A model generated the notes under the pieces. The model was not told the origin of the DNA. It did no database searches and worked only from the letters and a program-made list of their open reading frames with translations. Both the position numbers and the translations under genes were made by a program. A stretch of 64,000 nucleotides of DNA from Boletus sp. NGJ (Eukaryota; Basidiomycota; Agaricomycetes; Boletales; Boletaceae): positions 104,045 to 168,044 of the forward strand of contig JAGTXK010000242.1 in assembly GCA_019096195.1 (NCBI GenBank), read 5' to 3'. Of the stretch, positions 5,657 through 64,000 are shown piece after piece; positions within the stretch are counted from its first letter, which is position 1; every line of letters begins with the position of its first letter.

Positions 5657-6116
<460 letters not shown>

Positions 6117-24900: not shown

Positions 24901-26061
24901 ATGATCATCATGATCGAGAACGCACTTTCCCCCGCCATCCGACTCGCTCAGCCTCCCACAGTTCCAGACCTATCGCAGGTTGACGTATACCCTTCCACTC
25001 ACTTCCGCGGAATCTGAGTACTAAACAGAGACAGAGATCGCGGGCGGTCTTCAGGCCGACGGCCAAGTCATGGGCCCGAGGCCTGCGTGGCTGACATCCG
25101 AGCGATTGCATCCGCTTCTGCACCTCGACAGTGGCACGTCCCCTCCGAACTGCCAAACCCCGCGGTGGACAAATGGATCAAGGGTCACACCAGACAGGTT
25201 GCGTTCATGTTTGAGCAGTCAAGGTTGGGTAAAATCGCATTTCCGAGCGATGGATGGGGCCGTAAAGTTCAATTTTGGTACCGTGATGTCGAAGCAAGGC
25301 GGATTGTTCCTTGTTGTACGAGTTGTCAATTCTCGCTTTTCGAGTCACGTCGGACTCTCTGCGTCGTGAAGGGTTGTTTGACTCGCCGATTCGGGGGGTT
25401 CTCAAATGCTCTCCAGAGGGTTCATACCAACGACGGTTGATCGCGTACTAGTTTAGGTCGTCTGAACGTGCTGTTCTCTCGAAATGTCGCGTGCGACGGG
25501 CGGAAGTGTTGAATTCATTGTCAAGGTGCCCCTTCAAGTCACAGGTGCGTCACTGGAGAGGGCCGATGTGAAGAGCTCATCGAGGTGGATGGCGTTGGTG
25601 GAACGAATATGAGCTGGTCCACTAGCGAGCTACTGTTGACAAGGGACAATCGCGTTTGGTTGTACTCAGATCGTGACCTTTCCAAGAGGAGCTGCGGACA
25701 TCCACGAATGTTTCTCTCCACATACCGTCGTTGGGGTCAAGGAAGCGTCTTCGGGATTCGGTTAATGATGTTCGAGTGGATGAGGGCGTATCGCGCTAGG
25801 TTTGGGTGTGGGTGCCGTGCCACAACTCAGAGATATAGATCTCAGGATAACTTGACATATCTCGTTCCATGGTGTCGTCGATGTGGGGTCCGAGTTGTGC
25901 ATATGCACTGTATCATCGTAATAGTAGTGTGGTCTCGTACATCATTCAACCGACGTTGAAAGTTACTGTCAATGTCAAACAAGTCGAAGGTAGGATTTCT
26001 CTCCATCGACAAGTCCTCCAGGTGGGATGTGAGTCTATACATATACATCGAATCACCTGGA
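24901..26061. repeat. Left-edge spacer repeat of the WD40 array
   Basis: Degenerate repeat unit. An open stretch at about 25087-25440 (plus) contains the segment EQSRLGKIAFPSDGWGRKVQ. Shifted or broken versions of the same DNA recur in spacers at 29030-29240, 33190-33400, 48090-48240, 52140-52310 and 56400-56600. This copy is the most open, so it may be closest to the source gene; a possible upstream exon starts with ATG at 24901. I do not recognise the protein and treat it as repeat-derived. Confidence 0.5.
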
Positions 26062-28277
26062 TCAATCCGTCTCATCCCCGGTACTTGGGCCACAACACAT
26101 CCACCCGGGAAACGCGATCGACAACCTGAGGATAGCCTTGCCTGATTTTCGCTAATGTGATCCACTGTGAGTCTGATAGCATAAGCCCAGGAAAGTGCGC
26201 GCACCGTGAGTTGGACCCCTCCGGCGGAAGGGTGAGACGAATTATTTGCTTGCTGCGCCTAATAGGAAACAAGCTATCTTGGCATGGCACATAATCACAA
26301 GAAAAAAGACGTACTTGGTCTGCTTCTCGTGGTTTTGCAGAGCTTTGCCCGCTACGAGAAGCATCTTTCTTCGGATGGCTAGCCTGAGCATCCTTGGGAG
26401 GCGATTTGGGCTGTAAGATATAATAAGGCCCGACAGACAAACTCGAGGAACAACGAACATCTCGTTTTACAACGGGTTTCGCGACCGCTCGCTACAATGG
26501 TATATTAGACACATCCCATCCGATCATCCATCAAGGAAGGGTACTCACTCGTACACGTTGACCTGCAGCCATCCGCGAAGGTCCCTCGTTTGAGGCATCC
26601 GCTGGTGATTGGGAAGAAGATCGATTATCGACATGCCGACGCGTCTTTCTGGAAGCTCGACCGGGCTTATGTGAAGCGGCCTCTTTGTTACCCTTCTTGG
26701 TCTTCGCCTGTAGCCACCTTTTGAACTTCATAATGCCCTGAGACGACTCGATAGTGTCGAGATGATCCTCTGCATGTGCCAGTGGAGGGTAGATAACCGG
26801 TATGGCGTCCGATAGCTGTGCTACGGCATGGGACACGTCAGGGGGTGGTACTTCGTCCTCGCAATGGGCCGAGGATCCTGGAGATGATGGCTCCAGCAGT
26901 GTCAACACGCAGGAGAGAGGATAATGTAGTGATCACCAACCTCGTCAAAATCAAATTCAGGGGCGGGTGCGCTGGATGCACTTCGACCTGTGCAACTGTC
27001 GGACCTTGCTTCGAGGGGGGAAATAACGAACACATACCTCGAGGAGATCCTCATTTCCACCTTCTTTGTGTGTCGCGGACCTGAGTGGGCCTGATTCTTC
27101 CTGGTGTACAACAAGTTAGCACAACCCTTTTGGTGACAGAATGGCAAATTCCTACTGGAGAGTCAGACGGTTTGTTGTCACAGTTGCCAGAGGTTGAAGG
27201 TTGCTCGTCTGATCTTTCCTCGCGACTAGATGTCTAAAATAGTGCGTCGATGTGTGAGACGGAATGGGGCTTATCCGACGTGCCGACATTGAATGGACAT
27301 ATGCTTACATGGAATGGACCATATGAGTCAGGGAGAATACCCCCGAGGTCACGGATGACGATTTTCCCGCCATCATCCATCGCCAGATAGCCACTGTTCG
27401 GGGAGATGGCAATTGTATATATTCCTGTGCTGCCCTTGATGACAGGGTCAATGTGTGAGAGAGTCAACGTGTCCAGGAATGAGATGGTCCTGTCTGCAAA
27501 GGTAGCAATGAATTTCCCACTGGGCAGCTAGAGCAAGAGAGTAGACGTCATCGCCATCGAGAGTCTGCGATTCGGCGAGCTGCGAGCCCGTCAACACGTC
27601 AAATAACTTGATCTTGTTGTCTGCTGATGCGGCGAAAATTTGCTGGCCGTCGTTAGACCACGCAAGCAGGGTGCTTGGCCATCTTGAGGGTGTGACTGTT
27701 TCGATGGTAATGAGCTCGTCCCCACTGCGACTGTCGAAGATGCGGATCGAGCAACTATGGCTGGCAGTGGCAAAGCGCTCGCCGTTCGGGGAGAATCTGA
27801 CTGTAGTGACATAAAAGTCATGCGCCAGCGGGCCAACGAGTCTCTTCCCGCTGGTTATGCGCCAGACACTCACTGCTCTGTTGATCCCAGTTGCAAACGC
27901 GGTCGAGTCAGGGGAAACATCGACAGCATTCACCATGCTTGTGCCCTCCACGTGAATGACCTTTTTTTGCATTTCTTCATCCCACACATTTGCCCCCTCA
28001 TCAGTACCACAGACTATCCACTTGTGATCCCTTGACACAGAAATGGCGTACACAGTCTTTCCCGTTTGCTTTCCTACCTCTTGACCGTCTTCGAGTCGCC
28101 ATCGTTGAATCCCATCGTTAGTCCCACCCAAAACGTGCTTTCCGTCAGGGTGGAACGCGACTGCCCTCACGCTAGAATTGCCAGTATCAAGGACTATTGT
28201 TGGGTCTTACGGAAAACTCAGCATTGCACAATCACTCCTCAGAACTGTTACGCACCGGTCTTTATCGACGACATCAT
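26062..28277 (-). pseudogene. WD40 family copy M1, frameshifted
   Basis: First of three leftward copies. The tiny exon 1 (28277-28256, MMSSIKT) has a GTGCGT donor; exon 2 starts at 28205 and encodes propeller blades. An extra G at 27522-27524 (TGGGCAG where the other copies have TGGCAG) shifts the frame within blade 6. Blade 7 resumes in the other frame (27467-27300). The tail exons are present (basic segment near 26700, SQGIMKFKRWLQAKTKKGNK), and the last exon ends at 26062. The acceptor before exon 8 is lost (TATTAG is TATTATAT here, near 26428). Two lesions make a functional product unlikely. Confidence 0.75.
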
Positions 28278-30154
28278 CACTGATGCTGCGCGGTCGTTGG
28301 CTTCGAAGAGTGAAAGAACGAGGTGGTTTCGGTTTACTCGTGGTGCGCAAAGTTGCCTCACAAACACGCTTCCTCATTCTCAATTGGGCCGTCTCGTGGC
28401 TTTGGCGCTTATTCTTACACGGATCCCAGCTAGCTGACTTCGTTGCGGTGACCAGGCAAGTAGTCAGCATCGGCCGAACCTTCCCTCGTTCACACAGGTA
28501 GTCTTTCCCCGGGATTTGGGAGTGCTCGTTGTATCTCGGATCCTGGACTCGGCTCGCGACGAGCGTACAATCCGCATTAGACCCACTCGCGACATACCGC
28601 GCCAAAACACGCGTGCGTTCTAGGACGTTCTTCAGCAAGGATCGCTCATATTCCCGAAGAAGTTTCTCTGCAAGATGGGAGACGAATGTATGTACCACCC
28701 GATCTTGAACCACGTCACATTCACATTCATCTGTGTGACGTTTCGTGCACAGCTCACCCTCGTTGCTATAGACGTCGGACAGATGTCAGGACGTCGCAGA
28801 CATACGTACGTGTTTCTCCGGGGCTCGAATGTGCTCACACACGCGCTTCGTGGACGCCCAGTCATGGCTCTGGATGACCAATGTCATATTTCAGCACGCA
28901 CATGGAACCGACAGATATGTTTCTTCCTAAAAGCATATTTGAACCGCCGTATTTTCCCTGTCGTCCCTCGAGCGATCCAGATGAACACGTGGATCGTGGA
29001 TCACACCGGATACGCGCGCAAGCCTTGGAGGAGTCAAGGATGGGTTACATCGCATTTCGAAGCAATAGACGCGACTGCAAGAGTCCAGTTTGGTATGAGA
29101 GTATCATCGATCCGAGTGTCGATATGACGACGCCGAAGACATTGAAAACACAATCGAAGTGGGGCAGAACGTCCCTGTTGTACGATTTTATACACTGTCA
29201 TTCTTCGAGTTACGTCGGATCCTGCAAGAAAATCATCAGGTCATCGCATCTGTAACAGCTACATCCTGTTGGGTCTCCGGCCCGGCGGGAGCAGTTAGGC
29301 TTTGTCTCGCCGATTCAGCGCGTTATTGAACTTTGGTCGGAGGGTTTGACGTCCGATTTTCAAAGCTGCAGGGCTTGCAAGCGTCAGTTGTCCAACCTTT
29401 CAATCTTTCTCGTCGGACACTTGATACCCTAACTGTACATCAGGTAGTTGTGCTGGTCTTTGCAACAGGTGCTCCACTGAAACGGAACAGTAGGATCGGT
29501 GGAAATGTGCTGGAGGTAGTAACTTGAGCATGGTGAGATATTTTTCTTCATGTGCACAACTTGCGCACTCCTCCATCGTCCTCGCCAGTTCTCCCCTATT
29601 CACTTTGCATTTCCCGCAAATTATCTCCGCCTTGAGTCTGTCGGCATCTTCCACCAGGGATGGGTTATCCTGGCCTTCACACACGTCCAACACCCGCCAG
29701 AGACTCTAGCCCGGCTCTCCGCAGGACAAGCATGGCCCGCTGGCGCACTCATCACCGGCTACGGAATCTCTGGCTCTGCTTAGACCTGGGCATCTTTTTC
29801 TCTCACAGATATCCTCGTCATCATTGCCCTACATCAACGCCGGTCGTCCGAACAATCGGACCTCTCCCTATTTTTGTCTCCCTCGCATGGTGTACTTCTC
29901 TGAAGCCATCAGGATGGCGCATCTCGGGGATGTCGATCTCAGGGTGGACAGTTATAACTTGGACTTGATATATGCGCAAACAAATATGGATGCATGCAAC
30001 CTCAGTACCACTATTACTCAAATCTAGGTCACGCGCTATTGTCAACGATCGTGCCATGTTCTGTTGTCCATGTCAAGCAAGTCAGAAATAGGATATCTCT
30101 CAATCGACAAGTCCTCCGAAATGCGAGAAGACGTATTCCATCGAATCACATGGA
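28278..30154. repeat. WD40 array spacer M1-M2
   Basis: Repeated spacer of about 1.9 kb. Next to the M1 start is a conserved upstream block (28278-28900) seen before every WD40 copy. Beyond it are a broken ORF relative (28881-29250, plus) and a second conserved block (29400-30150). Its inverted counterpart is the P3-P4 spacer at about 59670-61400. Confidence 0.7.
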
Positions 30155-32385: not shown

Positions 32386-34829
32386 ATCCCTGATGTTACG
32401 CAGTCGTTGGCCTTAGAAGAGTGAAAGAACGAGGTGTTTTTGGTTTTACTCGTGGTGCGCAAAGTACTCCACGTTTCCTCATTTTCGATTGGGCCGCCTC
32501 GCGGCTTAGGCGCTTATTCTTACTCGGATCCCAGTTAGCTGACCTCGTTGCGACCATGCAAGTAGTCAGCATTGGTCAACCCTTCCCTTGTTGACACAGG
32601 AAGTCTTACCCCAGGACTTGAGTGTACTCCGTATCTCAGATGCGGGACTCGGTTCAGGACTCGCATACAATCCGCATTAGACCCACTCGCGACATACCGC
32701 GCATCGAGAACGTTTTCCAAAAGGGAGCGCTCGCGTGTTCTAGAAAAATTTCCGGGGATGCTAAGATGAGTGTATGCACCAGGCGATCTCGAGTCACGGT
32801 CAGATTCAGACTCACAAGTGTGGGCGTTTCTGTAACAGCTTGTGCTCTCTGCTATGGGGACATCACAGACGAACGTACGTGCTTCTTCAGGTCTCAAATG
32901 ATTGCGTTCACACACACATCCTGTCGACGCCAGTAATACTTTTGGAGAGCCAATGACAAGTTCCTGGGTTCAGCACGTACTGTACATGGAACTGACAGAA
33001 ATGCTTGAGCTCGCTTGCAGGTATTATGCTGAACTCTTGGAAGCGAATGCCACCAATGCGGTGTGTGCAGCAGTGTGATCGAGTTGCACGTCGTGTTCTC
33101 ATACTTTTCCCCTCAAAGTCAGTTTGACGCGTCGTGTATCCTTCCCGTTCCACGAGCAACCAAGGTGGACATGTGGATCGAGGTTCATAACAGACAGGCG
33201 CGCTCGTGTTTGAGGTGCCAAGGGTGGGTGAAATCCCATTTCAGAGTGAGGATTCGCCCGCAAAGTTCAATTTGGTATGAGTATACCATCGATCCGAGTG
33301 TTGATATGCTGATGTTGAAGCAGGGCGTATTGGTCCTTGTTGCACGACTTTATCAAATTTCACTTTCGAGTCACGTCGAACTCTCTGCGTGAAGCGTCAT
33401 CAGGTCTTGAATGGTTAGGAGGGTTTAGTGTCAATTTCAAAGTTGAAGGGCTTGCAAGCGCCTTTTGTCCAACATCAAGGTAGTTGTGTTGGAATACGAA
33501 TACATGGGTCCTTTCAAATAGGTTCTCCAGCGAAAGCGAAACCGTAACTGAGTAGCAATGGTGGGAATGTGCTGGTAACTTGGACGTGGTGAGATCTTTT
33601 GCTTTATATGCACGACTTGCACACCCCACCTCCATCATTCTCGGCCCTATTCTCTTTGCATTTATCTCTGCCTTGAGCCTGACATCTTCTACCAGGGATG
33701 GCCCTCACACACGTCCAACATCCACCCGAGTCTCCACCCCGGCTCTCCGCAGGACAAGCATGGCTCGCTGGCGCACTCATCACCGGCTAGTACGGAACCG
33801 TGCTTTTTCTGGCTCTGCTTCTGGTATCAAGATGTATACGAAAGCATTTCTTTCCCGTCTATGTCTACGTTCGGATCTCCCTTCCTTGGGTCCAATTCCC
33901 AGTTCACGCGATTACTGTTTGCCAATTATCGCGGGCCCCGGAGGTCTGAGTATGCATAAGGAACAGACGATTTTAGTCGGTGTGGACGAGTTCGGCAACG
34001 TATCCTGTCCTTACGAATTGGCTTGCCGCGTTACTGGTATGGCTCTCGGTTGGCGTCGGGTCTCCAGAGACGTGCTGAAACATTGATTTTTATGACGGGG
34101 TGTCTACAAGTTCTACAAATGTATCGTCGTCTATAGCATTTCGGTACGTCCTCGCCATCACAGGTTTCATGCAACTGCATCTTACAGTGAATATCATGAT
34201 CCGTGCACATCATGCACCTTGCAGGCTTTCTAACCTCAAACGTTACGCCTGCCCACTCGCGCCGTCCCACAAACCTGGGCATCATTTTCCCCTTACAGAT
34301 ATCCTCGCCATCATCATTGCCCTACATCAACGCCGGTCGTCCGAACAATCGGACCTCTCCCTCTCCCTATCTCTGTCTCTCTCACTATCATCGTTGTGTT
34401 CGTCTGCAGACGTTGGGATTGCGCATCTCGGGGTGGACGGTTATACTGTGACTTGACGCTTGATTCAGAAGCATCTCATTCTATGGACTCGCGCCGTCCC
34501 ACACAAACCTGGACGTACAGTTATCCTCGCCACCGCCCTTCATCAATACTGGTCGTCCAAACAATCGGACCTTCTCCCTATTTTTGTCTCTCGCTATCAT
34601 TGTTGTGCTTATCTGCAGGCGTCGGGATGGCGCATCTCGGGTCTCATTCTACGGCGTCATTGACAAATAGCGCGTGGCTTAGAGTTGTGTATTCTGGGAC
34701 ATCGATAATTTGTTCGTGCATCATCCAACCAATGAGGGTCATTGTTGTCCGTGTCAAGCAATTCAGAAATAGGACTTTCCTCCATCGACAAGTCCACGAT
34801 TAGACGTATTTTCATCGAATCATCCTGGA
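32386..34829. repeat. WD40 array spacer M2-M3
   Basis: Spacer of about 2.4 kb. The segment 32908-33392 is nearly identical, inverted, to 56407-56891 (matched coordinates sum to 89,799). It holds the conserved upstream block of M2, the degenerate ORF relative (about 33063-33392) and further repeats (33580-34460). A local internal duplication is visible around 34260-34640, where a run containing CAACGCCGGTCGTCC-like sequence appears twice. Confidence 0.75.
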
Positions 34830-37062
34830 TCAATGCGTCCCGTCTCCGGTACCTGACCTACAACACATCCACGCAGGAAACGTCAACCTGAGGTTAGCCT
34901 CGAGGGTAGCCTTGCCTGCTTCTTCCTGATGTGAATCCACTGTGAGTCTGAAAACATAAACATAAGGAAAGTGCGCGCACCGTGAGACGAACACCCCCAG
35001 CGGAGGGATGAGATTGATCGTTTGCTTGTGCCACCTGATAGGAAACAAGTTATCGTGACATGGCACATGACAACAAGAAAAAAGACGTACCGGGCCTGCT
35101 TCTTGTGGTTTTGTAGAGCCTTGCCCACTACGAGAAGCATCTTTCTTCGGACGGCTAGAGTGAGCGTTCTTGGCAGGCGATTTAGGCTGCAACATCCAAT
35201 GAGTCCGTATACACAAACTTGAGGAACTACGAACATCTCGTTTCACAACAGGTTTCGCGACCGCTCGCTACAATGGTATATTAGACACATCCCATCCGAT
35301 CATCCATCAAGGAAGGGTACTCACTCGTACACGTTGACCTGCAGCCATCCGCGAAGGTCCTTCGTTTGTGGCGTCCACCCTCGCTGGCGACTGGGAAGGA
35401 GATCGACGATCGGCACGCCGACGCGAATTTCTGGGAGCTCGACCGGGATTATGCGAAGTAGGATCTTTGTTACCCTTCTTGGTCTTCGCTTGTAGCCACC
35501 TTTTGAACTTCATAATGCCCTGAGACGACTCGACAAGATCGAGATGTTCCTCTCCACGTGCCAATGGAGGGTAGACCGTTGGTATGGCGTCTGATAACTG
35601 CGCTGCGGCATGGGACACGTCAGGGGGTGGTACTTCGTCCTCGCGATGGGAAGAGGATCCTGGAGATGGTGGCTACAGCATAGTCAACACGCAGGAGAGA
35701 GGATAATGTAGTGATCACCAACCTCGTCAAAATCAAATTCAGGGGCGGGTGCGCTGGATGACACTTCGACCTGTGCAACTGTCGGACCTTGCTTCGAGGG
35801 GGGAAATAACGAACACATACCTCGAGGAGATCCTCATTTCCACCTTCGTTTGTGTGTCGCGGGACCTGAGTGGGCCTGATTCTTCCTGGTGTACAACAAG
35901 TTAGCACAACCCTTTTGGTGACAGAATGGCAAATTCCTACTGGAGAGTCAGGCGGTTTGTTGTCACGGCTGCCAGAGGTTGAAGGCCGTTCGTCTAGTTG
36001 TCGTTCCTCGCGATTAGTTGTCTAACATAGTACGTCAATGTAGGAGACGGAATGGGGCTTATCTCATATGCCACAATTGTGAATGCTTACACGGAATGGA
36101 CCATACTCATCTGGGAGAATACCCCCGAGGTCACGGATGACAATTTTCCCATCATATTGTCCAGCCGCCAGATAGCCACTATTCGGGGAGATGGCAATTG
36201 TCCATATCCCTTGGCTGTCCTTGATGACGGGGTCAATCTGAGAGAGAGTCGACGTGTCCAGGAATGAGATGGTCCTGCCCGAAGACGTAGCAATGAATTT
36301 CCCATTTGCAGCTAGAGCAAAAGAGTAGACGTCGCTGCCAGCGGGAGTCTGCGATTCGGCGAGCTGCGAGCCCGTCAACACGTCAAATAACTTGATCTTG
36401 TTGTCTGCTGATGCGGCGAAAATTTGCTGGCCGTCGTTAGACCACGCAAGCAGGGTGCTTGGCCATCTTGAGGGTGTGACTGTTTCGATGGTAATGAGCT
36501 CGTCCCCACTGCGACTGTCGAAGATGCGGATCGAGCAACTATGGCTGGCAGTGGCAAAGCGCTCGCCATTCGGGGAGAATCTGACTGTAGTGACATAAAA
36601 GTCGTGCTTCAGCGGGCCAACGAGTCTCTTCCCGCTCGTTATGCGCCAGACGCTCACTGCTCTGTCAATCCCTGTTGCAAATGTGGTTGAATCTGGGGAA
36701 ACATCAACTGCATTCACCGAGTTTGTGCCCTCCACGTGAAGGACCTTTTTTTGCATTTCTTCATCCCACACATTTGCCCCCCCATCCTCAGTCCCGCACA
36801 CTATCCACTTGTGATCCTTCGTCACAGAAATGGCCTTCAACCACATTCCCGTTTGCTTTCCGACCTCTTGACCATCTTCGAGTCGCCATCGTCGAATACC
36901 ATCTCCACCCCCGCCTAAAACATGCTTTCCGTCAGGGTGGAACGCGACCGCCCCCACCTCGGCAGAGCCGCCCATGTCCAGCACTATTGTTGGGTCTGAC
37001 TGAACTCAGCATTGCACAATCACTGCTTAGAACTGTTACACACCAGACTTTGTCGACAACAT
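34830..37062 (-). pseudogene. WD40 family copy M3, tail frameshifted
   Basis: Third leftward copy. Exon 1 37062-37044 (MLSTKS), exon 2 36995-36091, exon 3 36021-35941. The propeller exon is fully open, with seven blades (GIRRWRLEDG to IVIRDLGGI). Exon 4 is 65 nt where intact leftward copies have 63, which shifts the frame of the remaining tail. The acceptor before exon 8 is also lost (CATTAG became CATTGG, near 35203). A truncated propeller protein could still be made; the normal tail cannot. Confidence 0.7.
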
Positions 37063-37600
37063 CCTCACTGATGGACTACGCGATCGTTGGCTTCGAAGAG
37101 TGAAAGAACGAAGTGTTTTCAGTTTACTCGTGGTGCGTCAAAGTGGCCTCGCAAACACGTTTCCTTATTCTGATCCTCGTGACTTTGGCGCTCATTCTTA
37201 CTCGGATCCCAGCTACCAGGTGACTTGGTGCGACAACCAGGTAAGCAGTCAGGCATCGGTCAAACATTCCCTCGTTGACACAGGTAGTGTTAACTTACCC
37301 CAAGACTTGGGAGTCCTCGTCGTATCTCGGATTCAGGACTCGGTTCACGACGAGCGTCCACATCAGACCCACTCCCGATATACCGTGCATTCGAGAACGC
37401 TTTCCAAGAGGGAGCGCCTCCTCTCGAGCTCCGGTTTTGCGAGCGGCGAGAAAACGTGTGCCAACTTTTACGCAAAGCGTGATTGATTTCGAGTCCAAAG
37501 ATGTTGCAGGGAAGGCAAATTGTTGTCTCTGCGTCGTTGCCTTTTACTCGTGTCCGACTGCCTCGTTGCGATCGTCTGCAACAAACACACTGGCAAGAAG
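37063..37600. repeat. Upstream block of M3; right end of left arm
   Basis: Conserved block that precedes each WD40 copy (GGGAGTCCTCG, CCCACTC and AAGAGGGAGCGC-like elements). Similarity to the other spacers fades at about 37500-37600, which I take as the inner border of the left inverted arm. Confidence 0.55.
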
Positions 37601-41325: not shown

Positions 41326-41470
41326 TGTTTAATTTGCTCACCAAAGAGTGGTTATGTTCGGCATCAATGCCGAGCAAGATCAACATTGAATCTCCGCGGA
41401 TGACTGAGTATGAATACTAGCACGCGCTTGTGGCGTGCCATATTCCCATCGACCGCGACGACGACGACAC
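41326..41470. promoter_or_regulatory. Divergent promoter, ZIM17/POL1
   Basis: 145 bp between two ATG codons on opposite strands. No TATA box is clear. An MCB-like ACGCG site controlling POL1 in S phase might be expected; the nearest match is GCACGCGCTT at about 41420-41430. Confidence 0.4.
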
Positions 41471-46716: not shown

Positions 46717-46855
46717 ACGCATTGTTGGACATTTGACACCCTACACCTGTGGGTGTTATGTATTAGACACGCTGTACACCTCCCATTACTTTTGATGGAC
46801 GCGTTGGTATCGATATCGACTCTGAGCTCTAGCAGCAATATTAATAAATCGCCCG

Positions 46856-47632: not shown

Positions 47633-47799
47633 GGTTGGTCTTGCACCATCCTTGCGGCACAGTGCATTCTCTTCATGAAGGTGCTGACTAATGTATGTCA
47701 CTACTTGAACTCAGTATTACTACTGAGAAGACTTTTGGAAAGGTCACGGTCGGGTTATCAACAGTTGCAGCGATGCCATCCTCGCGTCGCCCCTCTCTG

Positions 47800-48954
47800 A
47801 TGATGGTATTGATGACTTGAAGGAGGCAATATATATCATATCATTCTTCTCTGATCATCGCACACATTCAAGCGACCCAGAGATGAGACATCTAATTGTG
47901 AAAATTGTCACTAAACTGTCAAGTCATTCAACAATGTGCTGAATCAACAAGTCAAACCAAACTGCACCCGCCGGGCCGGTGAGCTAACACGAGGTAGCTG
48001 CTACACTTCATGCAGAGTCCGACGTGACTCGAAAAATGATGGTCTATAAAATCGTACAACAAGGACCAATCCGTCCTGCTTCGACGACATTATATCAGCA
48101 ATAGGATCGATGGTATACCAAACTGTACTTCTGCAGCCACATCTATCACTCGGAAATACAATTTACCCAGCCTTGACTCCTCCAAGGCGGGTACGTATTT
48201 GGTGTGAATGATGGTCGACGCGTTCATCTTTGCTGCTCGAGGGACGAGGGGAAAATACGGCGCTTCAAATATAGTGGGGCCCTGGGGAAGTATGAGCACA
48301 CGACGCGCACTGGCATTCAAGGACACCGCCGCGCATACCGCATTAATAGGGTCTGCGAGGCTTGACTGGCGTCCACGGCGCGCATGTATGTGAACACCAC
48401 CATTCGAGCCCCGAAGAAACACTTACGCACGTCTGCGACGACCGCCTGTCCGACGAATATAGCAGTGAGCGCGAGCCGTTCCCGAAACGCCACACAGATG
48501 AATGTAAATCTGATATAGTTCGAGATCAGGTGGTGTATACATTCGTCTCCCATCTTGCAGTGAAATTGTACAAGGGATTCCTGCAGAAGAACGTCCTGGA
48601 ATCACCGTGTTTTGTGCACGGTATGTCACGAGTGGGTCTAATGCGGAGTGTACGCTCGTCCTGAACCCAGTCCTGCATTCGAGCTACGACGAGGACTCCC
48701 AAGTCCCTGCGTAAGACTACCTGCGTCAACGAAGGAAGGTTTGACAAATGCTGACTGCTTGTCTGGTCGCCGCAACGAGGTCACTGAGCTGGCCCGGTCC
48801 AAGTAAGAATAAGCGCGTATGAGGCGGCCCAATTGAGAATGAAGGACTCAGGAACCGTGTTTGTGAGGCTATTTTGCGCACCACGACTCAGTAAATCACA
48901 AACACCTCGTTCTTTCACTCTTCTGAGCCAACAACTGCGTAGGCATCAGTGATA
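47800..48954. repeat. Spacer upstream of WD40 copy P1
   Basis: Inner border of the right arm near 47.9 kb. Contains a copy of the degenerate ORF (48090-48240, minus; segment EESRLGKLYF) and the conserved upstream block (about 48440-48954). Confidence 0.6.
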
Positions 48955-51177: not shown

Positions 51178-52860
51178 TCAGGTGATCCGATTCAATACGT
51201 ATAGTCTCGCGTTCTGGACTTGTCGATGGAGAGAAATCTTATTGCTCGACATCGACAATAAAGTCCATCGTCGGTTGGATGATGCACGAATAAATCGTGG
51301 ATGTGCCCGGCCGCAGTGCTACTATTACGAGGACATATAAGATTCTAAACCACGCGCTGTTTGTCAACGACGCCGTTGATGATTGAACGAGACATATCAA
51401 GTCCAAGTTCTATCCGTGCACCCTGACATCGACATTCAGAGATGCGCCGATGGAGGGCTACAACATTGATAGTGAGGGAGACAGAGAAATAGGGAGAGGT
51501 CCGATTGTTCCGAAGACCGGCGTTGATGTAGGGCGATGGTGATGGCGGGAATATCTGTGACGCCCTGCGAGACAAATAGCTCGTCAAAAACCCAGACCGG
51601 GACTGGGACCCCTCGATTCACCGTGATAGTCATGTTGATTCGGTATTCGGTCGGTTGCCCTGCGGTGGAGAGGATGCTAATCTCCCCTTCATCGAACAAG
51701 ATCGTGGAGACAGATTCAGATGGACGTTGTCTTTCGCGATGATGAGACGCGCGTTTAGAGATGCCAAAAAAAAAAAAACAGTTTGCATATCTACACAGCA
51801 AATGAATAGGGGAGAACTGGCAAGGATGATGAGGGTGGAGTGTGCAAGTTTTGCACATGAAGAAAAAGATCTCACCATGCTCAAGTTACTACCTCCAACA
51901 CATTTCCACCGATCCTACCCAGTTACGGTTCCGTTTCGGTGGAGAACTAGCACAACTACCTGATGTTAGGGTATCGAGAGTCCGGCGAGAAAGATTGAAA
52001 GGTTGGATGCTTTAAAAATTGGACGTCAAACCCACCAACCATTCAATAACGCGCTGGATCGGTGAGTCAAACCTAACTGCTCCCGCCAACCGGTGACCCA
52101 ACAAGATATGGCTCTTGCAGATGCGATGACCTGATGATTTTCTTGCAGGATCCGACGTAACTCGAAGAATGAAATCGTACAACAGGGACGGCCTGCCCCG
52201 CTGAGTTGTCTTCGGCGTCGTCATATCGACACTCGGATCGACGATACTCTCACACCAAATTGGACTCTAGCAGCCGCGTCCATTGCTCCGAAATGCGATT
52301 TTACCCATCCTTGAATATGAATATGCTTTGGAAGAGAAAGTAAGAGAACACGACGTGCACTCAATCACAATCTCACGCATACTGCATTAGTAGAAACCGC
52401 TTCCGAGAGCTAAGCATAATACTTGGAAGCGATCTCAAACATTGCGCGCTGAACACGGAAATTTGCCGTTGGTTGTCCAGAGACATCATTGTCGTCGACG
52501 AGGCGTGGGTGTGAGCACAACCATTCGAGCCGCAGAGAAACACGTACATATGTACCTCTGCGACGGCCACCTGCTCGACGTCTATAGCAGAAAGCGCAAG
52601 CTGTTCCCGAAAAGACTACCTGTGTCAACGAGGGAAAGTTTGACCGATGGCCTGACTGCTTGCCTGGCCGTCGCACCGACTCGGAGGTCACTGAGCTGGG
52701 TCCAATTAAAGTAAGAATAAGCGCCAAAGCCACGAGGCGGCCCGATTGAGAATGAGGAAACGTGTAAGTTGTGGGGCTACTTTGCGCACTACGAGTAAAC
52801 CGAAGACGCCTCGTTCTTTCACTCTTCGAAGCCAACGACCGCATAGGCCCATCAGTGAGG
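51178..52860. repeat. WD40 array spacer P1-P2
   Basis: Spacer repeat with the family 3' flank (51180-51400), an A-run at 51766-51779, the degenerate ORF relative (52140-52310, minus) and the conserved upstream block of P2 (52440-52860). No intact gene seen. Confidence 0.65.
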
Positions 52861-55080
52861 ATGTCGTTGACAAAGACTGGTGCGTAACAGTTCTGAGTGA
52901 TTGTGCAATGCTGAATTTTCAGTAAGACCCAAAGATAGTGCTTGAGACCAGCAGCGGGTCTAGACTGAGGGCAGTCGCGTTCCACCCTGACGGAAAGCAC
53001 ATTTTGGGTGGGGGTAACGATGGGATTCAACGATGGCGACTCGAAGACGGTCAAGAGGTAGGAAACCAAATGGGATTGACCTTTAATGCCATTTCTGTGA
53101 CGAGGAATCACAAGTGGATAGTGTGCGGCACTGATGAGGCGGGGGCAAATGTGTGGGATGAAGAAATGCAGAAAATGGTCATTCTCGTGGATGGCACAAA
53201 CTCGGTGAATGCAGTTGATGTTTCCCCAGATTCAACCACATTTGCAGCCGGGATCGACAGAGCAGTGAGCATCTGGCGAATAACGAGCGGCAAGAGACTC
53301 GTTGGCCCGCTGAAGCACGACTTTTATGTCACTGCAGTCAGATTCTCCCCGAACGGCGAGCGCTTTGCCACTGCCAGCAATGGTCGCTCGATCCGCATCT
53401 TCGACAGTCGCAATGGGGACGAGCTCATTACCATCGAAACAGTCACACCCTCCACATGGCCAATCACTCCGCTTGCATGGTCCAACGACAGCCAACAAAT
53501 CTTTACCGCATGTAACAACAAGATCAAGCTATTTGACGTGTCGACGGGGTCGCAGCTTGCCGAATCGCAGAATCTCGGTGGCGACATCTACTCTCTTGCT
53601 CTAGCTGCAAATGGGAAATTCATTGCTACGTCTTCGGGCAGTACCATCTCATTCCTGGACACGTTGAGACTCTCTGTCATTGACTCTGTCATTGAGGACA
53701 GCAATGGATTACGGGCAATTGCCATCTCCCCGAACAGTGGCTATCTGGCGACTGGACAATATGATGGGAAAATTGCCATTCGTGACCTCGGCGGCATTCT
53801 CCCGGATATTTATGGTCCATTCCATGTAAGCATTTGTCGAATTCACAATTCGGCATGTGCAATATGCCCTATCTTGCCTCCCACATTGACACTCCATGTT
53901 AGATATCTAATCGTGAGGAAACACAACCAGACGAGCGGCATTCCAATAAACCGTCTGACTCCCAAGTAGGAGTCTGCCTTTCCGTCACCAAAACGGCTGT
54001 GCTAACTCGTACACCAGGAAAAACGTAGGGAATCAGGCCCACTCGGGTCCTCAACACACAGCGAAGATGGCAATAAGGATCTCCTCGAGGTATCTGTTTG
54101 TCCTTTTCCCCCCAAAGTGAGGTCTGACCATTGCACAGGTCGAAGTGCCATCCGGCGCGTCCGCCCCTGAATTTGATTTTGACGAGGTTGGTGATCACTA
54201 CATTATCATCTCTCCTCTTCGTGTTGACACTGCTGTAGCCACCATCCCCAGGATCATCTGCCCATTGTGCAGACGAGGTACGGCCCCTTGACACGTCCGA
54301 TGGTGCAGCGCAGTTATCAGACGCCGTACCAGTGGTCTACCCTCCATTGGCACGTGCAGAGGGTCACCTCGACACTGTCGAGTCGTCTCAGGGCATTACG
54401 AAGTTTAAAAAGTGGCTACAGGCTAGGCTCAAGAAGAGTAACAAGGACCCCACTTCACATAAGCCCGATCGAGCTCCCAGAAAGTCACGTCGGCATGCTG
54501 ATCGTCGATCTCCTTCCCAGTCGCCAGCGAGAGTGGACGCCACAAACGAAGGGCCCTCACGGATGGCTGCAGGTCAACGTGTACGAGTGAGTACCCATCC
54601 TTGATAGATGCTCAGATGTAATGTGTCTAATATATCATCATAGCGAGCGGTCGCGAAACCTGTTGTGAAACGAGATGTTCGTAGTTCCTCAAGTTTGTGT
54701 ATAGGGACTCATTAGATGTTGCAGCCTAAATCGCCTGCCAAGAACGCTCACCACAGCCGTCCGAAGAAAGATGCTGCTCGTAGTGGGAAAGGCTCTACAA
54801 AACCACAAGAAGCAGGCCCGGTACGTCTTTTTTCTTGTTGTTATGTGTCATGTCATGGTAGCTTATTTACTATTAGGTAGAACAAACAAACAAACGATCT
54901 CCTCCCTCCGCTGGGGGGGTTCACCTCACGGTGCGCGCACTTTCCTTACGTTTATGTTTTGAGACTCACAGTAGATCACATCAGGAAGAAGCAGGCAAAA
55001 CTACCCTTGAGGCTACCCTCAGGTTGACGTTTCCTACGTGGATGTGTTGTAGGTCAGGTACCGGAGATGGGACACATTGA
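52861..55080 (+). CDS. WD40-repeat protein, copy P2 (intact)
   Basis: Ten exons: 52861-52879, 52927-53825, 53903-53965, 54018-54089, 54139-54186, 54239-54586, 54644-54676, 54716-54820, 54877-54930, 54985-55080; 578 aa with consistent phases. Seven propeller blades, as in M2; blade ends read IQRWRLEDG, ANVWDEEMQ, VSIWRITSG, IRIFDSRNG, IKLFDVSTG, ISFLDTLRL and IAIRDLGGI. The tail has an acidic patch (EDGNKDLLE), the strongly conserved exon 5 (VEVPSGASAPEFDFDE), a Lys-rich helix (FKKWLQARLKKSNK) and the C-terminus WMCCRSGTGDGTH. Intron 7 is only 39 nt (54677-54715). It corresponds to M3 in the inverted arm. Propeller function and partner are unknown. Confidence 0.8.
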
Positions 55081-57443
55081 TCTAGGTGATTTGATGCAAT
55101 ACGTCTATTCTCGCATTTTAGAGGACTTGTCAATGGAGAGATATCCTATTTCTGATTTGCTTGACATGGACAACAAAACATGGCATCGTTCACAAATAGC
55201 GCGTGACCTAGATTTGAGTATGTCCTCGTAATAATGGTACTATAGTCGCGTACATCCATGATTTATTCGCGCATATATCAAGTCCAAGTTGTAACTGTCC
55301 ACCTGACATCGACATCCCCGAGATGCGCCACCCGACGTCTTCAGAGAAGTACAACACTGTGAGGGAGACAGAAATAGGGAGATGTCCGATTGTTCGGACG
55401 ACAGGCGTTGATGTAGGGCGATGCTGGTAGCGAGGATATCTGTATGGGGAAAATGATGCCCAGGTTTGTGTGGGACGGCGCGAGTTGGGCAAGGAAACCT
55501 GCAAGGTGCATATGCACGGATCATGATACGTGATGATGGCGAAGACGTACCGAAATCGCTACAGACGACGACATATTACCAGAACTGATACACACCCCGT
55601 CACAATAACCTATGCTATGTTTCAGCACGCCTCTGCAAACCCGATGCCAACCGAGAGCCATACCAGCAACGAGCTGGCGAGCCAATTCGTAAGGACATAG
55701 GATACGTTGCCGAACTCGTCCACACCGATCGAAGACGTCTATTCATTATGCATACTCAGACCTCGGGGGGCCGCGATAATTGGCCAACGGTAATTGCGTG
55801 AACTGGGAGTTGGACCCAAGGAAGGAGATCCGAACGTAGACATAGACGGGAAAGAAAAGCTTTCGTATACCAGAGGGCATGAGAGCAGAGCCAGAAAAAG
55901 CACGGTTCCGTACTAGCCGGTGATGAGTGCGCCAGCGAGCCATGCTTGTTCCTGCGGAGAGGGTTGAGACTCGGGTGGATGTTGGACGTGTGTGAGGGCC
56001 ATCCCTGGTAGAAGATGTCAGGCTCAAGGCAGAGATAAATGCAAAGAGAATAGGGCCGAGAATGATGGAGGTGGGCATATAAAGCAAAAGACCTCACCAC
56101 GCCCAAGTTACCAGCACATTCCCACCATTGCTACTCAGTTACGGTTTCGTTTTTCGGTGGAGAACCTATTTCAAAGACCCATGTATTCCAATACAACTAC
56201 CTTGGTGTCGGAATATCGGAAGTTGGACGGGGAATTTTGAAGGGTTGGACAGAAAGCGCTTGCAAGCCCTGCAACTTTGAAAATTGACATTAAACCCTCC
56301 AACTGATCAATAATACGCTGGTTCGACGAGTCAAACCTAACTGCTCCCGCCGGGCCGGTGACCCAAAGCGATGTAGCTGTTACAGATGCGATGACCTGAT
56401 GACGCTTCACGCAGAGAGTTCGACGTGACTCGAAAGTGAAATTTGATAAAGTCGTGCAACAAGGACCAATACGTCCTGCTTCAACATCAGCATATCAACA
56501 CTCGGATCGATGGTATACTCATACCAAATTGAACTTTGCGGGCGAATCCTCACTCTGAAATGGGATTTCACCCATCCTTGACACCTCAAACACGACCGCG
56601 CCTGTCTGTTATGAACCTCGATCCACATGTCCACCTTGGTTGCTCGTGGAACGGGAAGGATATACGACGCGTCAAACTGACTTTGAGGGGAAAAGTATGA
56701 GAACACGACGTGCAACTCGATCACACTGCTGCACACACCGCATTGGTGGCATCCACTTCCAAGAGTTCAGCATGATACCTGCAAGCGAGCTCAAGCATTT
56801 CTGTCAGTTCCATGTACAGTACGTGCTGAACCCAGGAACTTGTCATTGGCTCTCCAAAAGTATTACTGGCGTCGACAGGATGTGTGTGTGAACGCAACCA
56901 TTTGAGACCTGAAGAAACACGCACGTTCGTCTGTGATGTCCCCATAGCAGAGAGCACAAGCTGTTACAGAAACGCCCCCACTTGTGAATCTGAATCTGAC
57001 CGTGACTCGAGATCGAGTGACGCATACATTCGTCTAGCATCCCCAGAAATTTTCTAGAGCACGCGAGCGCTCCATTTTGGAAAACGTTCTCGAATGCACG
57101 CGTGTTTTGTGCACGGTATGTCGCGAGTGGGTCTAATGCGGATTGTACACTCGTCCTGAACCGAGTCCTGCATCTGAGATACGACGAGGACTCCCAAGTC
57201 CCGGGTTAAGACTACCTGTGGCAACGACGGAACGTTTGGTCAATGTTGACTGTTTGGTTGGTCGTCGCAACCAGGTCACCTAGATCCAAGTAAGAAAAAG
57301 CGCCAAAGACACGAGGCGGCTAGGACCCAATTAAGGGTAAAGGAAACGTGTTTTGTGAGCTCACTTTGCGCACAACGAGTAAACCGAAATATCTCCTTCT
57401 TTCACTCTTCGAGCCAAGTGACTGCGTAGGGCCATCAGTGAGG
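55081..57443. repeat. WD40 array spacer P2-P3
   Basis: Inverted counterpart of the M2-M3 spacer. The core 56407-56891 is almost identical to 32908-33392 on the other strand. It also holds the 3' flank of P2, the MARWRTHHRLVRNRAFSGSA-type segment (about 55900-55960, minus) and the conserved block before P3. Confidence 0.75.
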
Positions 57444-59309
57444 ATGTCGTTGATAAAAACTGGTGCGTAACAATTCTAAGGAGTGACCGTGCAACTTGAA
57501 TGCTGAGTTTTACTAAGACCCAACGATGGTACTTGACACCGGCAGCTCTGTGGCGAAGGCAGTCGCGTTCCACCCTGACGGAAAGCACATTTTTGGCGGG
57601 GGTGACAATGGGATTCAACGGTGGCGACTCGAAGACGGTGAAGAGGTCGGAAAGCAAACGGGAATGCGGTTGAATGCCATTTCGGTGTCAAGGGATCACC
57701 AATGGATAGTGTGCGGCACTGATGAGGCGGGGGCAAGTGTGTGGGATACAGAGATGCAGGAAAAGGTCGTTGACGTGGAAGACAGAAACAGGGTGATGAC
57801 AGTCGACGTTTCGCCTGATTCGACTACATTTGCAACTGGGACCGGAGCCCCTGGCAAGGACGTGAGCGTCTGGCGCATACCGAGCGGGCAGAGACTCGTT
57901 GGCCCACTGAAGCATGACTTTTATGTCACTGCAGTCAGATTCTCCCCGAATGGCCAGCGCATTGCCACGTCCTGCAGGGAAGGCCCCATCCGTGTTTTCG
58001 ACAGTCGCAATGGGGACAAGCTCATTACCATCGAAACAGTCACACCCGAAGCTTGGCCAATCACTCCGCTTGCATGGTCCAACGACAGCCAACAAATCTT
58101 TACCGCATGTAACAACAAGATCAAGCTATTTGACGTGTCGACGGGGTCGCAGCTTGCCGAATCGCAGAATCTCGATGGCGACATCTACTCTCTTGCTCTA
58201 GCTGCAAATGGGAAATTCATTGCTACCTTTGCAGACAGAGTCATCTCATTCCTGGACACGTTGAGACTCTCTGTCATTGACTCTGTCATTGAGGACAGCA
58301 ATGTATTATGGGCAATTGCCATCTCCCCAAACAATGACTATCTGGCGACTGGACAATATGATGGGAAAATCGTCATCCGTGACCTCGGCGGCATTCTCCC
58401 GGACTCATATGGCCCATTCCTTGTAAGCATTTGTCCATTCAATTGTGGCATATGAGATAGCCCCATTCCGTCTCATACATTGACACACTATCTCAGACGT
58501 CCAATCACGAGGAAAGACAGTCAGACGAGCAGCCTTCAACCTCTGGCACCCGTGACAACAAACCGTCTGACTCCCCACTGGCAGTAGGAGTTTCCCGTTC
58601 TGTCACCAAAAGGACCATGTTAACTCACTCGTACGCCAGGAAGAACCTGGGAAATCAGGCCCACTCAGATCCCCGACACACAAAGAAGGTGGAAATGAGG
58701 ATCTCCTCGAGGTATGTGTTCGTTATTTCCCCCCTCGAAGCAAGGTCCGACAGTTGCACAGGTCGAAGTGTCATCCAGCGCACCCGCCCCTGATTTTGAT
58801 TTTGACGAGGTTGGTGATCACTACATTATCCTCTCTCCTCCGTGTTGACACTGCTGGAGCCATCATCTCCAGGATCCTCGGCCCACTGTGAGGACGAAGC
58901 ACCGCCGCTTGACACGTCCCATGCCGTAGCGCAGTTACCAGACGCGATACCAGCGACCTACCCTCCACTGGCATGTGCAGAGGAACATGTCGACATTATC
59001 GAATCGTCTCAGGGCATTACAATGTTTACAAAGTGGCTACAGATGAGGACCAAGAAGAGTAACAAGGACCCCGCTTCGCACAAACCCGGTCAATCTTCTT
59101 CCCAATCTCCAGCGACAGTGGACGCCACAAACGAGGGACCTTCGCGGATGGCTGCAGGTCTACGTGTACCTGTGAGTGCTCTTCCATGATAGACGATCTG
59201 ATGGGGTATGGCTGATATTCCATCATAGCGAGCGGTCGCGAAACCCGTTGTAAAACGAGATGTTCGTAGTTCCTCGAGATTGTGTGCTGGGTCTTATTAG
59301 ATGTTATAG
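57444..59309 (+). CDS. WD40-repeat protein, copy P3, truncated tail
   Basis: Exons: 57444-57462, 57518-58422, 58497-58583, 58640-58711, 58762-58809, 58860-59171, 59229-59261, then 59301-59309; 494 aa. The propeller is open, with a two-residue insertion in blade 3 (TGAPGKDVSVW). Exon 6 is 36 nt shorter than in the other copies (part of the basic Arg/Ser segment is missing). In exon 8 the third codon is TAG where other copies have CAG (59307-59309), so the protein ends early; sequence matching the missing C-terminal exons continues to 59667. The propeller could still fold; loss of the tail may or may not abolish function. Confidence 0.7.
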
Positions 59310-59667
59310 CCTAAACCTCCCGCCAAGGATGCTCGCCCTAGCCATCCGAAGAAGGGTGCTTCTCGTAGTGGACAAGGCCCTACAAAACCACAAGAAGTAG
59401 GCCCAGTACATCTTTTTCTTGTTATTATGTGCCTTGTCATGATAACTTATTTCCTACTAGGTAGAACAAGCAAACGATCGATCTCATTCCGTTGGTGGGG
59501 TCCGTGTCACGGTGCGCGCACAACCCTTATATTTATGCTGTGAGACTCACAGTGGATCACATCAGGAAGAAGCAGGCAAAACTACCCTAGAAGCTAACCT
59601 CAGGTTGTCAATCACGTTTCCTACGTGGATGTGTTGTAGGTCAGGTACCGGAGATGGGACACATTGA

Positions 59668-61400
59668 TGTAGGTGATTCGATGCAATACGTCTATCCTCG
59701 CAATTTGGAGGCCTTGTCGATGGAGGATTCTGACTTGCTTGACATGGACAACGACCATCGTTGGTTAGATGATGCACGAACAAATCATGGATGTACGAGA
59801 CTATAGTATGTACTACTATTACGAGGATATACATAACTCTACGCCACGCGCTATTTGTCAACAGTGCCATAGAACGAGATATCAATATATCAAGTCCCAG
59901 TTGTTATATCCGTCCACCCTGACATTGACATCCCGGAGATGCGCTATCTCGACATCTTCAGAGAAGCACAACATTCACAACGAAAGAGACAGGGTTGAAA
60001 GAGGGAGGTGTCCGGTCGTACGACCAGCGCTGTTGTAGGGCGATGATGATGGCGAGGAGGTCTGTGTGAGATATTGTAAACTGTTATTCTTCGAGTTACG
60101 TTGGCTCTGCATGAGGCGCAATTACCACTTACCAACTATCGTAGGCGCCCCGGAGGTCCGAGTGTGTATGAGGAACAGAGGTGTCGATTGGTGTGGACGA
60201 GATCGGAAGCGTATCTTATGCGTTGGCTCGCTAACCCGCTACTTGTATGGCTCTCGGTCAGCGTCAGATTTCTCGATCATTGGTTATGATGACGGGGTTT
60301 GTGCAAGGCCTGGCAATGTGTCGTCATCTATGGCAATTTTTGGTTGACCTCGTCATCATTGGTCTCATGCAACTTACACTTTGTGGTGAATATCATGATT
60401 CGCCCATTCCCACCTCGCAGGTTTTCTACTTCATACAACAAGGACCAATCCGTCCTGCTTCGACGTCATCATATGAACGCTCGGATCGATGGTATACTCA
60501 TACCAAATTGAACCGTGCGGGCCCATCCGTTACTCGGAAATGCGATTTTACCCATGCTTGACTCCTTCAACGTACCACTAGTGTGATCCACGGGTTGATC
60601 TTGGTCGCTCGAGGGACGAGGGGAGAATACGACGCTTCAAATATGCTTTGGAAGAGGGTAGGAGAACACGACCGTGACGCATTCGATCACACTGCCACGC
60701 ATAATACCGCATTGGTAGAATCTGCTCCCAGAGCTCAGCAGAGTACTTGAGAGCGATCTCAAGAATTTCTGTGAGCTCCAAGCGTGTGATGAAAAATTTG
60801 TCATTGAATGTCCAGAGGTATTACTGGCCTTGACGAAGTATGAACGCAAGAGCTGCGCCACTATTCGAGCCCCGAAGAAACGCGTACGTATGTCTGCGGC
60901 GGCCACCTGTCCGACGTCTATAGCGGTGAGGCCGAGCTGTTCCCGAAACGCCACACAGATGATTGTGAATATGACGTGGTTCGAGATCGGGTGGTGCAAC
61001 ATTTGTCTCCCATCTTGCACGAAAATTTCCTCGGGAGTACGAGCGATCCTTGCTGAAGAACGTCCTGGCCCGGGAATGCACGCGTGTTTTGTGCACGGTA
61101 TGTCGCAAGTGGGCTAATGCGCTCCTCGTGAACCGAGTCCTGGATACGAGATACGACGAGCACTCCCAAGTCCCGGCATAGGATTACCTGCGTCAACACG
61201 GGAAGGTTTGGCCGATGCTGACTGCTTGCCTGGTCGCCGCAATGAGGTCAGCTAGCTGGGATCCGAATAAGCGCCAAAGACACGAGGCGGCCCAATTGAG
61301 AATGGGGGAAAAGTGTTTGTAAGGCTACTACGAGTAAAACGAAAACATCTCGTTCTCTCACACTTCCAAGCCAAGTGACTGCGTAGGACCATCAGTGAGG
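59668..61400. repeat. WD40 array spacer P3-P4
   Basis: Inverted counterpart of the M1-M2 spacer. Contains the 3' flank of P3 (59670-59820), a block at 60060-60560 and the conserved upstream block (60640-61400) before P4. Confidence 0.65.
61085..61400 (+). promoter_or_regulatory. Conserved block upstream of WD40 starts
   Basis: Example of a roughly 300-500 bp block before every WD40 start (also about 28278-28640, 32386-32780, 37063-37480, 48600-48954, 52600-52860, 57090-57443). Recurrent elements include TTTGTGCACGGTATGTCGC, the CGAGGCGGCCCAATTGAGAA-like element and a TCGTTCTTTCACTCTTCGAA-like element about 40-100 bp before the ATG. Proposed as the family promoter from position and conservation alone. 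Confidence 0.45.
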
Positions 61401-63648
61401 ATGTCGTCGATAAAAACTGGTGCGTAACAATTCTGAGGAGTGACCGTGCAACTTGAATGCTGAATTTTACTAAGACCCAACGATGGTACTTGACACCGGC
61501 AGCTTTGTGGTGAGGGCAGTCGCGTTCCACCCTGACGGAAAGCACATTTTTAGCGGGGGTGACAATGGGATTCGACGGTGGCGACTCGAAGATGGTCAAG
61601 AGGTAGGAAAGCAAATGGGAATGTCCCTGAATGCCATTTCTGTGACGAAGGATCGCAAGTGGATAGTATGCGGCACTGATGAGGCGGGGGCAAATGTGTG
61701 GGATACAGAGATGCAGGAAAAGGTCGTTGACGTGGAAGACAGAAACACGGTGAATGCAGTTGATGTTTCCCCAGATTCAACCACATTTGCAGCCGGGATC
61801 GACAGAGCAGTGAGCATCTGGCGAATAACGAGCGGGAAGAGACTCGTTGGCCCGCTGAAGCATGACTTTTATGTCACTGCAGTCAGATTCTCCCCGAACG
61901 GCGAGCGCTTTGCCACGTCCTGCAGGGAAGGCCCCATCCGTGTTTTCGATAGTCGCAATGGGGACGAGCTCATTACCATCGAAACAGTCACACCCTCCAC
62001 ATGGCCAATCACTCCGCTTGCATGGTCCAACAATGGCCAGCAAATTTTCGCTGCATCAACAGACAACAAGATCAAGTTATTTGACGTGTCGACGGGGTCG
62101 CGGCTCGCTGAATCGCAGACCCTCGGTGGCGGCAATGTCTACTCTCTTGCTCTAGCTGCAAATGGGAAATTCATTGCTACCTTTGCAGACAGAGTCATCT
62201 CATTCCTGGACACGTTGAGACTCTCTGTCATTGACTCTGTCATTGAGGACAGCAATGGATTACGGGCAATTGCCATCTCCCCGAACAGTGGCTATTTGGC
62301 GACTGGACAATATGATGGGAAAATTGCCATTCGTGACCTCGGCGGCATTCTCCCGGATGTTTATGGTCCATTCCATGTAAGCATTTGTCCAATTCACAAT
62401 TCGGCATGTGCAATATGCCCTATCTTGCCTCCCACATTGACGCTCCATGTTAGATATCTAATCGCGAGGAAACACAACCAGACGAGCGGCATTCCAATAA
62501 ACCGTCTGACTCCCAAGTAGGAGTTTGCCATTCTGTCACCAAAAGGACCATGTTAACTCACTCGTACGCCAGGAAAATCTTAGGAAATCAGGCCCACTCG
62601 GGTCCTCAACACACAGCGAAGATGGCAACGAGGATCTCCTCGAGGTATCTGTTTGTCCTTTTCCCCAAAAAGCGAGGTCTGACAATTGCACAGGTTGAAG
62701 TGCCATCCGGCGCATCCGCCCCTGAATTTGATTTTGACGAGGTTGGCGATCACTACATTATCCTCTCTCCTTCGTATTGACACTGCTGTAGCCCCCATCT
62801 CCAGAATCGTCTGCCCATTGTGAGGACGAAGTACCACTCCCTGACGCGTTCGATGCCGTAGCGCAGTTGTCAGAAGCCATACCGGCAATCTACCCTCCAT
62901 TGGCATGTGCAGGGGAGCGACTCGACAGTATCGAGTCGTCTCAGGGCATTTCAAAGTTTGCAAAGTGGCTTCGGGCGAAGACCAAGAAGGGTAACAAGGA
63001 CCCCACTCCGCATAAGCCCGGTCGAGCTCCCAGGAAATCGCGTCGGCCTGCCGATCGTCGATCTCCTTCCTACTCACCAGTGAGAGTGGACGCCACAAAC
63101 GAAGGACCTTTGCGGATGGCTGCAGGTCAACGTGTACGAGTGAGTACCCATCCTTGATTGATGATTGGATGCAATGTGTCTAAAATATCATCATAGCGAG
63201 CGGTGGCGAAACCTGTTGTCAAACGAGATGTATGTTATCCCTCGAGTTTGTGTGCAGGGACTCATTAGATGTTACAGCCTAAATCGCCTGCCAAGGATGT
63301 TCATGCTAATCATTCGAAGAAAGCCGCGTCTCGTAGCGGGCAAGGCTCTGCAAAACCACAGGAAGCAGGCCCAGTGCGTCTTCTCTCTTGTCGTTATGCG
63401 CCATGTCATGATCTGTTAGCCGGAACAGGCAAATGATGAATCTCATCCCTCTGCCGAAGGGGTCCATCTCACGGTGCGCGCGCTTCCCTTACTCTTATTT
63501 TGTGACTTTTGTCAGACTCAGTGGATCACATCAGCGAGAATCAGGCAAGGCTACCCTCGAGGCTAACGTTAACGTCAGGCTTTCGATGAAGATGACGTTT
63601 CCCGCATGGATGTGTTGTGGCTCAAGTACCGGGGATGGGAGGCATTGA
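61401..63648 (+). CDS. WD40-repeat protein, copy P4 (intact)
   Basis: Ten exons: 61401-61419, 61475-62376, 62454-62516, 62573-62644, 62694-62741, 62792-63139, 63197-63229, 63269-63373, 63420-63473, 63535-63648; 585 aa, phases consistent. Propeller as in the other copies, with blade 4 ending SCREGPIRVFDSRNG, shared with P3. Intron 7 (63230-63268, 39 nt) has a strong GTATGT donor, the best evidence that exon 7 stops there instead of running to the TAG at 63266. The tail ends WMCCGSSTGDGRH after a slightly longer last exon. Corresponds to M1 in the left arm. Confidence 0.8.
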
Positions 63649-64000
63649 TCCAGGTGATTCGATGCAATACGTATAGTCTCACATCCTGGAAGACTTGTAG
63701 ATGGAACAAAAAATCCTACTTTCGACTTGTTTGACATCGACAACCTATTTCATCGTTGGTTGCATGCATGCATAAATCGTTGATGTACCTGACTACAGTG
63801 TTACTACTCGTACTACGAGAATATGCACAACTCTACGCCGCATGCTATTTGATATAGAGAAGGGGAATGGCATCCACACCCGAACCCAGCACGATGCGCA
63901 TATCCACTCCTCGTGAAACAAAATAGTAAGAGGCCAAGCTTACGCATACGAATAACTTGAAGATCACCTTGCCATCTGCAGCACATCCCTGCCCGGACAG
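63649..64000. repeat. Spacer downstream of P4, window edge
   Basis: Start of another spacer unit with the family 3' flank; the array may continue beyond the window. No gene seen up to 64000. Confidence 0.5.

Follow-up and report, generated by a model that had tools for sequence, protein, structure and literature searches.

POL1, which is essential for replication, sits in Boletus sp. NGJ between two arrays of WD40 genes that swap sequence, and this setting raises the question of how the arrays arose and whether they duplicate or endanger the genes that they enclose. The window, i.e., the whole stretch of 64,000 nucleotides analyzed here, corresponds to positions 104045-168044 of contig C19 in a genome assembly of 32.8 Mb and 141 contigs. 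The contig stops at base 168044, which is window position 64000, so the right edge of the window is the contig end. Among the papers listed by a literature search, none dealt with this WD40 gene cluster.

Organization of the locus

Self-comparison of the window revealed seven related units of about 2.6 kb each, of which three lie on the minus and four on the plus strand. Together with Pfam searches, it placed all seven WD40 copies on the strands given in the original prediction, M1-M3 pointing leftward and P1-P4 rightward. Gene-scale matches among the units (79-88% over about 2-2.7 kb, E = 0 in the BLAST self-comparison) are far beyond chance. Among the genes that had been placed between the arms, POL1, ZIM17 (zf-DNL) and the flavin reductase were recovered, but the MFS transporter is represented only by an MFS-like ORF below the Pfam cut-off. 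The genes are as follows.

25967..28602, minus strand: WD40 gene M1; propeller exon with a frame change after about 234 codons
30062..32730, minus strand: WD40 gene M2; open propeller exon
34743..37417, minus strand: WD40 gene M3; open propeller exon, homology ending at about 37417
39197..39865, minus strand: MFS-like ORF (Pfam MFS_1, 29.7 bits, under the cut-off of 33.4)
40834..41351, minus strand: ZIM17 (zf-DNL), in two matched stretches
41827..46579, plus strand: POL1, DNA polymerase alpha catalytic subunit; limits approximate, from ORFs
46859..47710, minus strand: flavin-reductase-like gene (PF01613)
48615..51246, plus strand: WD40 gene P1; propeller exon with a frame change after about 162 codons
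52612..55175, plus strand: WD40 gene P2; open propeller exon
57067..59752, plus strand: WD40 gene P3; open propeller exon, a mosaic of P-like, M-like and C82-like tracts
61092..63744, plus strand: WD40 gene P4; open propeller exon, predicted seven-bladed propeller

The arrangement of two WD40 arrays facing away from each other around a POL1 core is real, and it is mirror-like in part. The core genes are neighbours of the arrays and need not have any part in array function. To the left of M1, two short stretches at 25164-25364 are about 79-84% similar to the WD40 upstream spacers, as if a trace of a former further WD40 copy were left there; a DUF2880 match at 25018-25437 falls below the Pfam cut-off. 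Elsewhere in the window, 8599-12175 and 12990-16597 form a direct duplication of about 3.6 kb with 92% identity.

The WD40 genes and their predicted protein

WD40 repeats were found above the Pfam cut-off in the central exon of all seven copies (PF00400, 60-117 bits versus a cut-off of 27), the intactness of the genes being scored on this propeller exon. The AlphaFold2 model of the P4 exon (308 residues) is a propeller with 27 strands and a pLDDT of 87.5, and its best structural matches are WD40 propellers such as 5yzv and WDR5 in the PDB; the predicted fold of this exon is a closed seven-bladed propeller. Values of dN/dS between 0.33 and 0.59 over 21 pairs of seven open copies (five from the window and two from contig C68) indicate that the copies are, on average, apparently under purifying selection. 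The proteins most likely serve as binding scaffolds. Pfam searches detected no extra domain in eight ORFs in and around the P2 unit or in one spacer ORF of the M arm, and a NACHT or NB-ARC NTPase domain was absent from these ORFs as well as from the Pfam matches listed for the WD40 exons (the best 25 for most exons).

With one propeller exon as the query, at least 123 family matches, some of them partial, were found on 35 contigs. Among the matches listed, neighbours within 30 kb of each other are mostly in tandem (60 of 71), with six divergent pairs, this locus included, and five convergent ones. The cluster is thus ordinary in kind, one of several in a large, sequence-swapping WD40 family, which may be typical of Boletales. 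On contigs C22, C81 and C71, WD40 matches of equal score lie on opposite strands, and two opposite-strand pairs on C22 have one coordinate sum, 486532; this pattern suggests either long near-perfect palindromes or fold-back assembly errors.

Mirror symmetry and probable sequence exchange

The two arms had been described as mirror images, with M3/P2, M2/P3 and M1/P4 pairing by position. All three pairs do show inverted matches in mirror order in the self-comparison of the window (coordinate sums 89,680-89,918), and the match of 32908-33392 with 56407-56891 reversed is correct (eight mismatches in 485 bases). Much of the regularity of the sums is expected from the similar unit length and spacing of two arrays of one family, and for M1/P4 the even sums can be just a product of similar unit length and spacing. 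In cross-arm identity, P2 is nearest to M3 (87.1%) and P3 to M2 (85.6%), in line with the mirror. P4, by contrast, shows its lowest identity with M1 (83.7%), and M1/P4 do not pair. Pairing is strong in the spacers of M2 and P3.

32820..33406, minus strand: upstream spacer of M2; partner of 56393-56979 reversed, likely an inter-arm conversion tract
33536..34030, minus strand: distal spacer of M2; partner of 55670-56151 reversed
55670..56151, plus strand: distal spacer of P3; partner of 33536-34030
56393..56979, plus strand: upstream spacer of P3; partner of 32820-33406

The upstream spacers are 98.0% identical over 587 aligned bases and the distal spacers 93.9% identical over 475, whereas the gene body reaches 85.0%. 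The binomial values, 1e-26 and 1e-9 respectively, apply to stretches that were selected after inspection. This spacer type is also present between WD40 copies on contig C82 (C82:313663-315084, 81-82%), and that part of the array therefore exists three times. The mirror holds for one two-gene block, M3-spacer-M2 versus P2-spacer-P3.

Such pairing invites the explanation that a whole three-gene arm was copied once, cleanly and inverted, and that the arms have only diverged since. The ordered inverted matches of all three pairs, the cross-arm proximity of M3/P2 and M2/P3, and the M2/P3 spacers speak for it. Under it, every unit and spacer would match its mirror partner best, and this is not what was found: the upstream spacer of M1 scores highest with that of P2 and then with that of P3, rather than with that of P4; P4 departs from M1 as described; M3 lacks a homologous upstream spacer or flank in the comparison of units; and the propeller exons cluster largely by arm. 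The M1/P4 mismatch, the M3 flank and the exon grouping already disfavour this history, which we regard as improbable. In the exon tree, M1 groups with M2, M3 with the C82 copies, and P2 with P3 plus P4, while P1 stands with the C68 copies outside the rest and, by this position, may be an older copy. The 3' tree leaves five of its eight inner branches open and places P3 with the M copies.

Sequence exchange was assessed by a GENECONV-style shuffle test (500 shuffles, p 0.05) on nine copies, seven from the window and two from C82, where three further partial matches were left out. Significant shared tracts between copies, the criterion for a concertedly evolving array, were found: 24 tracts passed (largest p 0.026), 12 within an arm, four between arms and eight involving C82, although these tracts overlap and are not independent events. 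The four inter-arm tracts (M1-P3, M3-P3 and M2-P3 twice) all lie in P3, at two neighbouring places. The shuffle test is blind to rate variation along the gene, and some tracts may be conserved sites; as a whole, the tracts, whether they lie within or between arms or are shared with C82, are best read as the product of gene conversion.

Taken together, the locus is probably a local cluster of a large fungal WD40 family that was built by tandem duplication and at least one inverted block and then reworked by gene conversion. Each family gene probably carries one seven-bladed propeller exon, and tandem duplication probably gave rise to the copies. A gene-spacer-gene block, at least one, was probably also copied in inverted orientation across POL1-ZIM17; its spacer type is present once more on C82. 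Short conversion tracts would then have shifted sequence inside each arm, from arm to arm and from contig to contig; as a result, the exons came to group largely by arm and the upstream spacers of M2 and P3 stayed, or again became, nearly identical. We infer this order of events from the patterns described above.

Stability of the core

The original prediction further held that arms of this size and similarity could let the essential core invert or be lost by recombination. Inverted arms do surround an essential core and share tracts, but the identical stretches are short, and neither inversion nor loss is seen. In its strongest form, the arms would actively flip the core as an inversion switch. 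The M2/P3 spacer stretch, 98% identical over 587 bases, would suit such a switch, but the longest exact inverted match between the arms is just 123 bases, with four matches reaching at least 100, and BLAST pieces put the identity between opposite-arm genes at 80.2-86.3%. POL1 searches of the contigs found no inverted or core-less version of the locus and no second full-length POL1: the full-length matches of one piece of POL1 and of its zinc-finger domain are confined to C19. A recombination event that flips the core is conceivable; an active switch is very unlikely.

Core pieces beside other arrays

Pieces of the core do occur near other WD40 arrays, on C68, which was read in part, and on C26, which is known from matches alone. 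On C68, WD40 genes occupy 3-13191 on the minus strand and 22710-27115 on the plus strand, and two POL1 pieces lie at about 13682-13953 (one 80% alike over 122 alignment columns, the other 74% over 127). As with POL1 and P1 in the window, the pieces are upstream of the neighbouring WD40 gene and on the same strand; they contain gaps and are 42 bases apart, versus about 1.5 kb in POL1. On C26, an open frame of 94 codons contains a zf-DNL match that exceeds the cut-off and covers positions 2-37 of 64. It is flanked on either side by a WD40 gene and lies on the opposite strand, the placement that ZIM17 has in the window, and DNA similarity of 74% continues over the second ZIM17 part, so that C26 may hold a second working ZIM17.

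These sequences suggest that core pieces were duplicated together with arrays and then at least partly decayed; the POL1 fragments and the partial ZIM17 fit duplication and decay of core pieces, not loss of a working core. It is a tentative and rather unlikely extension that divergent WD40 arrays act as carriers, recurrently duplicating the POL1-ZIM17 block to C68 and C26, where it would have decayed. Its details, namely that the copied POL1 was reduced to two fragments, that ZIM17 was kept at least in part and that the orientation to the WD40 neighbour was unchanged, are put forward with equal reserve. If arrays are such carriers, the locus would allow the rate at which they duplicate or endanger essential neighbours to be measured; if not, the cluster is an ordinary one in a family that has expanded.

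The right arm and contig C103

The locus is least secure in the placement of P2-P4. Another contig, C103, repeats about 14.5 kb of the right arm at 99.3-99.98%. Queries of 16 kb and 10.8 kb were uninformative on such near-identical copies, even the self match being outside the matches listed, and short pieces were used instead.

49543..64000, no strand assigned: stretch recurring on C103:27138-41597, with C103:32500-32999 outside the comparison

Window 55403-64000 equals C103:33000-41597 with two mismatches in 8598 bases, and window 49543-54903 is 99.3% identical to C103:27138-32499, with 34 separate differences. For the P2 propeller exon, the match on C103 covers 241 of the 324 query residues and contains one stop, versus 308 residues and no stop on C19. 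The C103 counterpart of P1 is 91-93% similar to that of C19 and is interrupted by insertions (C103:13778-27138), one of which bears LTRs 95.8% alike. The paired LTRs and a reading of the ORFs make these insertions putative LTR retrotransposons; the LTR element is seemingly bordered by CCACC. To the left of C103:11808, no match to C19 was found at E 1e-8 (C19:1-4044 being outside the comparison). Beyond P4, the 8.4 kb of C103 compared gave no further window match, and part of this flank is a repeat found on other contigs.

Between the two contigs, 15 of 16 substitution entries in 49688-52827 are C or G in the window and another base, mostly T or A, on C103, and from 53635 on all nine entries run the opposite way. 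Within 49688-54788, C103 lacks four single bases in the first part, and the window lacks five in the second. With a CpG-type pattern considered, the contexts of the differences were mixed; mutation bias or polishing errors could account for the direction.

It is possible, although we think it somewhat doubtful, that the right arm beyond about 49.5 kb stems from an assembly artefact or an unresolved bubble, the assembly of C19 having run on into C103 sequence, or that C19 and C103 are two haplotypes of a dikaryon. The contig end at window 64000, the near-identical repeat (two mismatches in 8598 bases plus the 99.3% stretch), and a P1 that differs by 7-9% on C103 and is cut by insertions, one with LTRs, are consistent with this explanation. 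Against it, the P1 of C19 is distinct, uninterrupted and joined to the core, which makes the M arm, core and P1 independent of C103; POL1 was not found on C103; and no second full-length copy was found for two tested pieces of C19, which means that the doubling does not extend over the whole contig. The worry that the arms are mis-joined is real for P2-P4. In BLAST pieces, the difference between M and P genes is 14-20%, and it is P2-P4 that recur on C103 and reach the contig end. C103 could represent either the other haplotype or a second locus, and P2-P4 of C19 may have been joined through it. The artefact or bubble variant is compatible with the preferred history of tandem duplication, at least one inverted block and gene conversion for the remaining locus.

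Comparison with known systems

The hnwd/NWD allorecognition genes of Podospora anserina (het-d, het-e and het-r) are reported to be STAND genes whose WD repeats are under concerted evolution (PMC2873952). They resemble the present genes as fungal paralogous WD-repeat genes that recombine within and between members. In contrast to these STAND genes, no NTPase domain was found in the ORFs tested here, and the propeller seems to be a single ordinary seven-bladed one. The head-to-tail copies, shared tracts and some broken frames are those of concertedly evolving tandem arrays; in contrast to the usual arrays, two opposed sub-arrays here enclose an unrelated block. Large palindromes that undergo gene conversion, such as that reported for the willow sex chromosome (PMC7023750), likewise have inverted arms and signs of exchange, but the opposite-arm genes of this locus are 80-86% alike, and only local tracts approach 98%.
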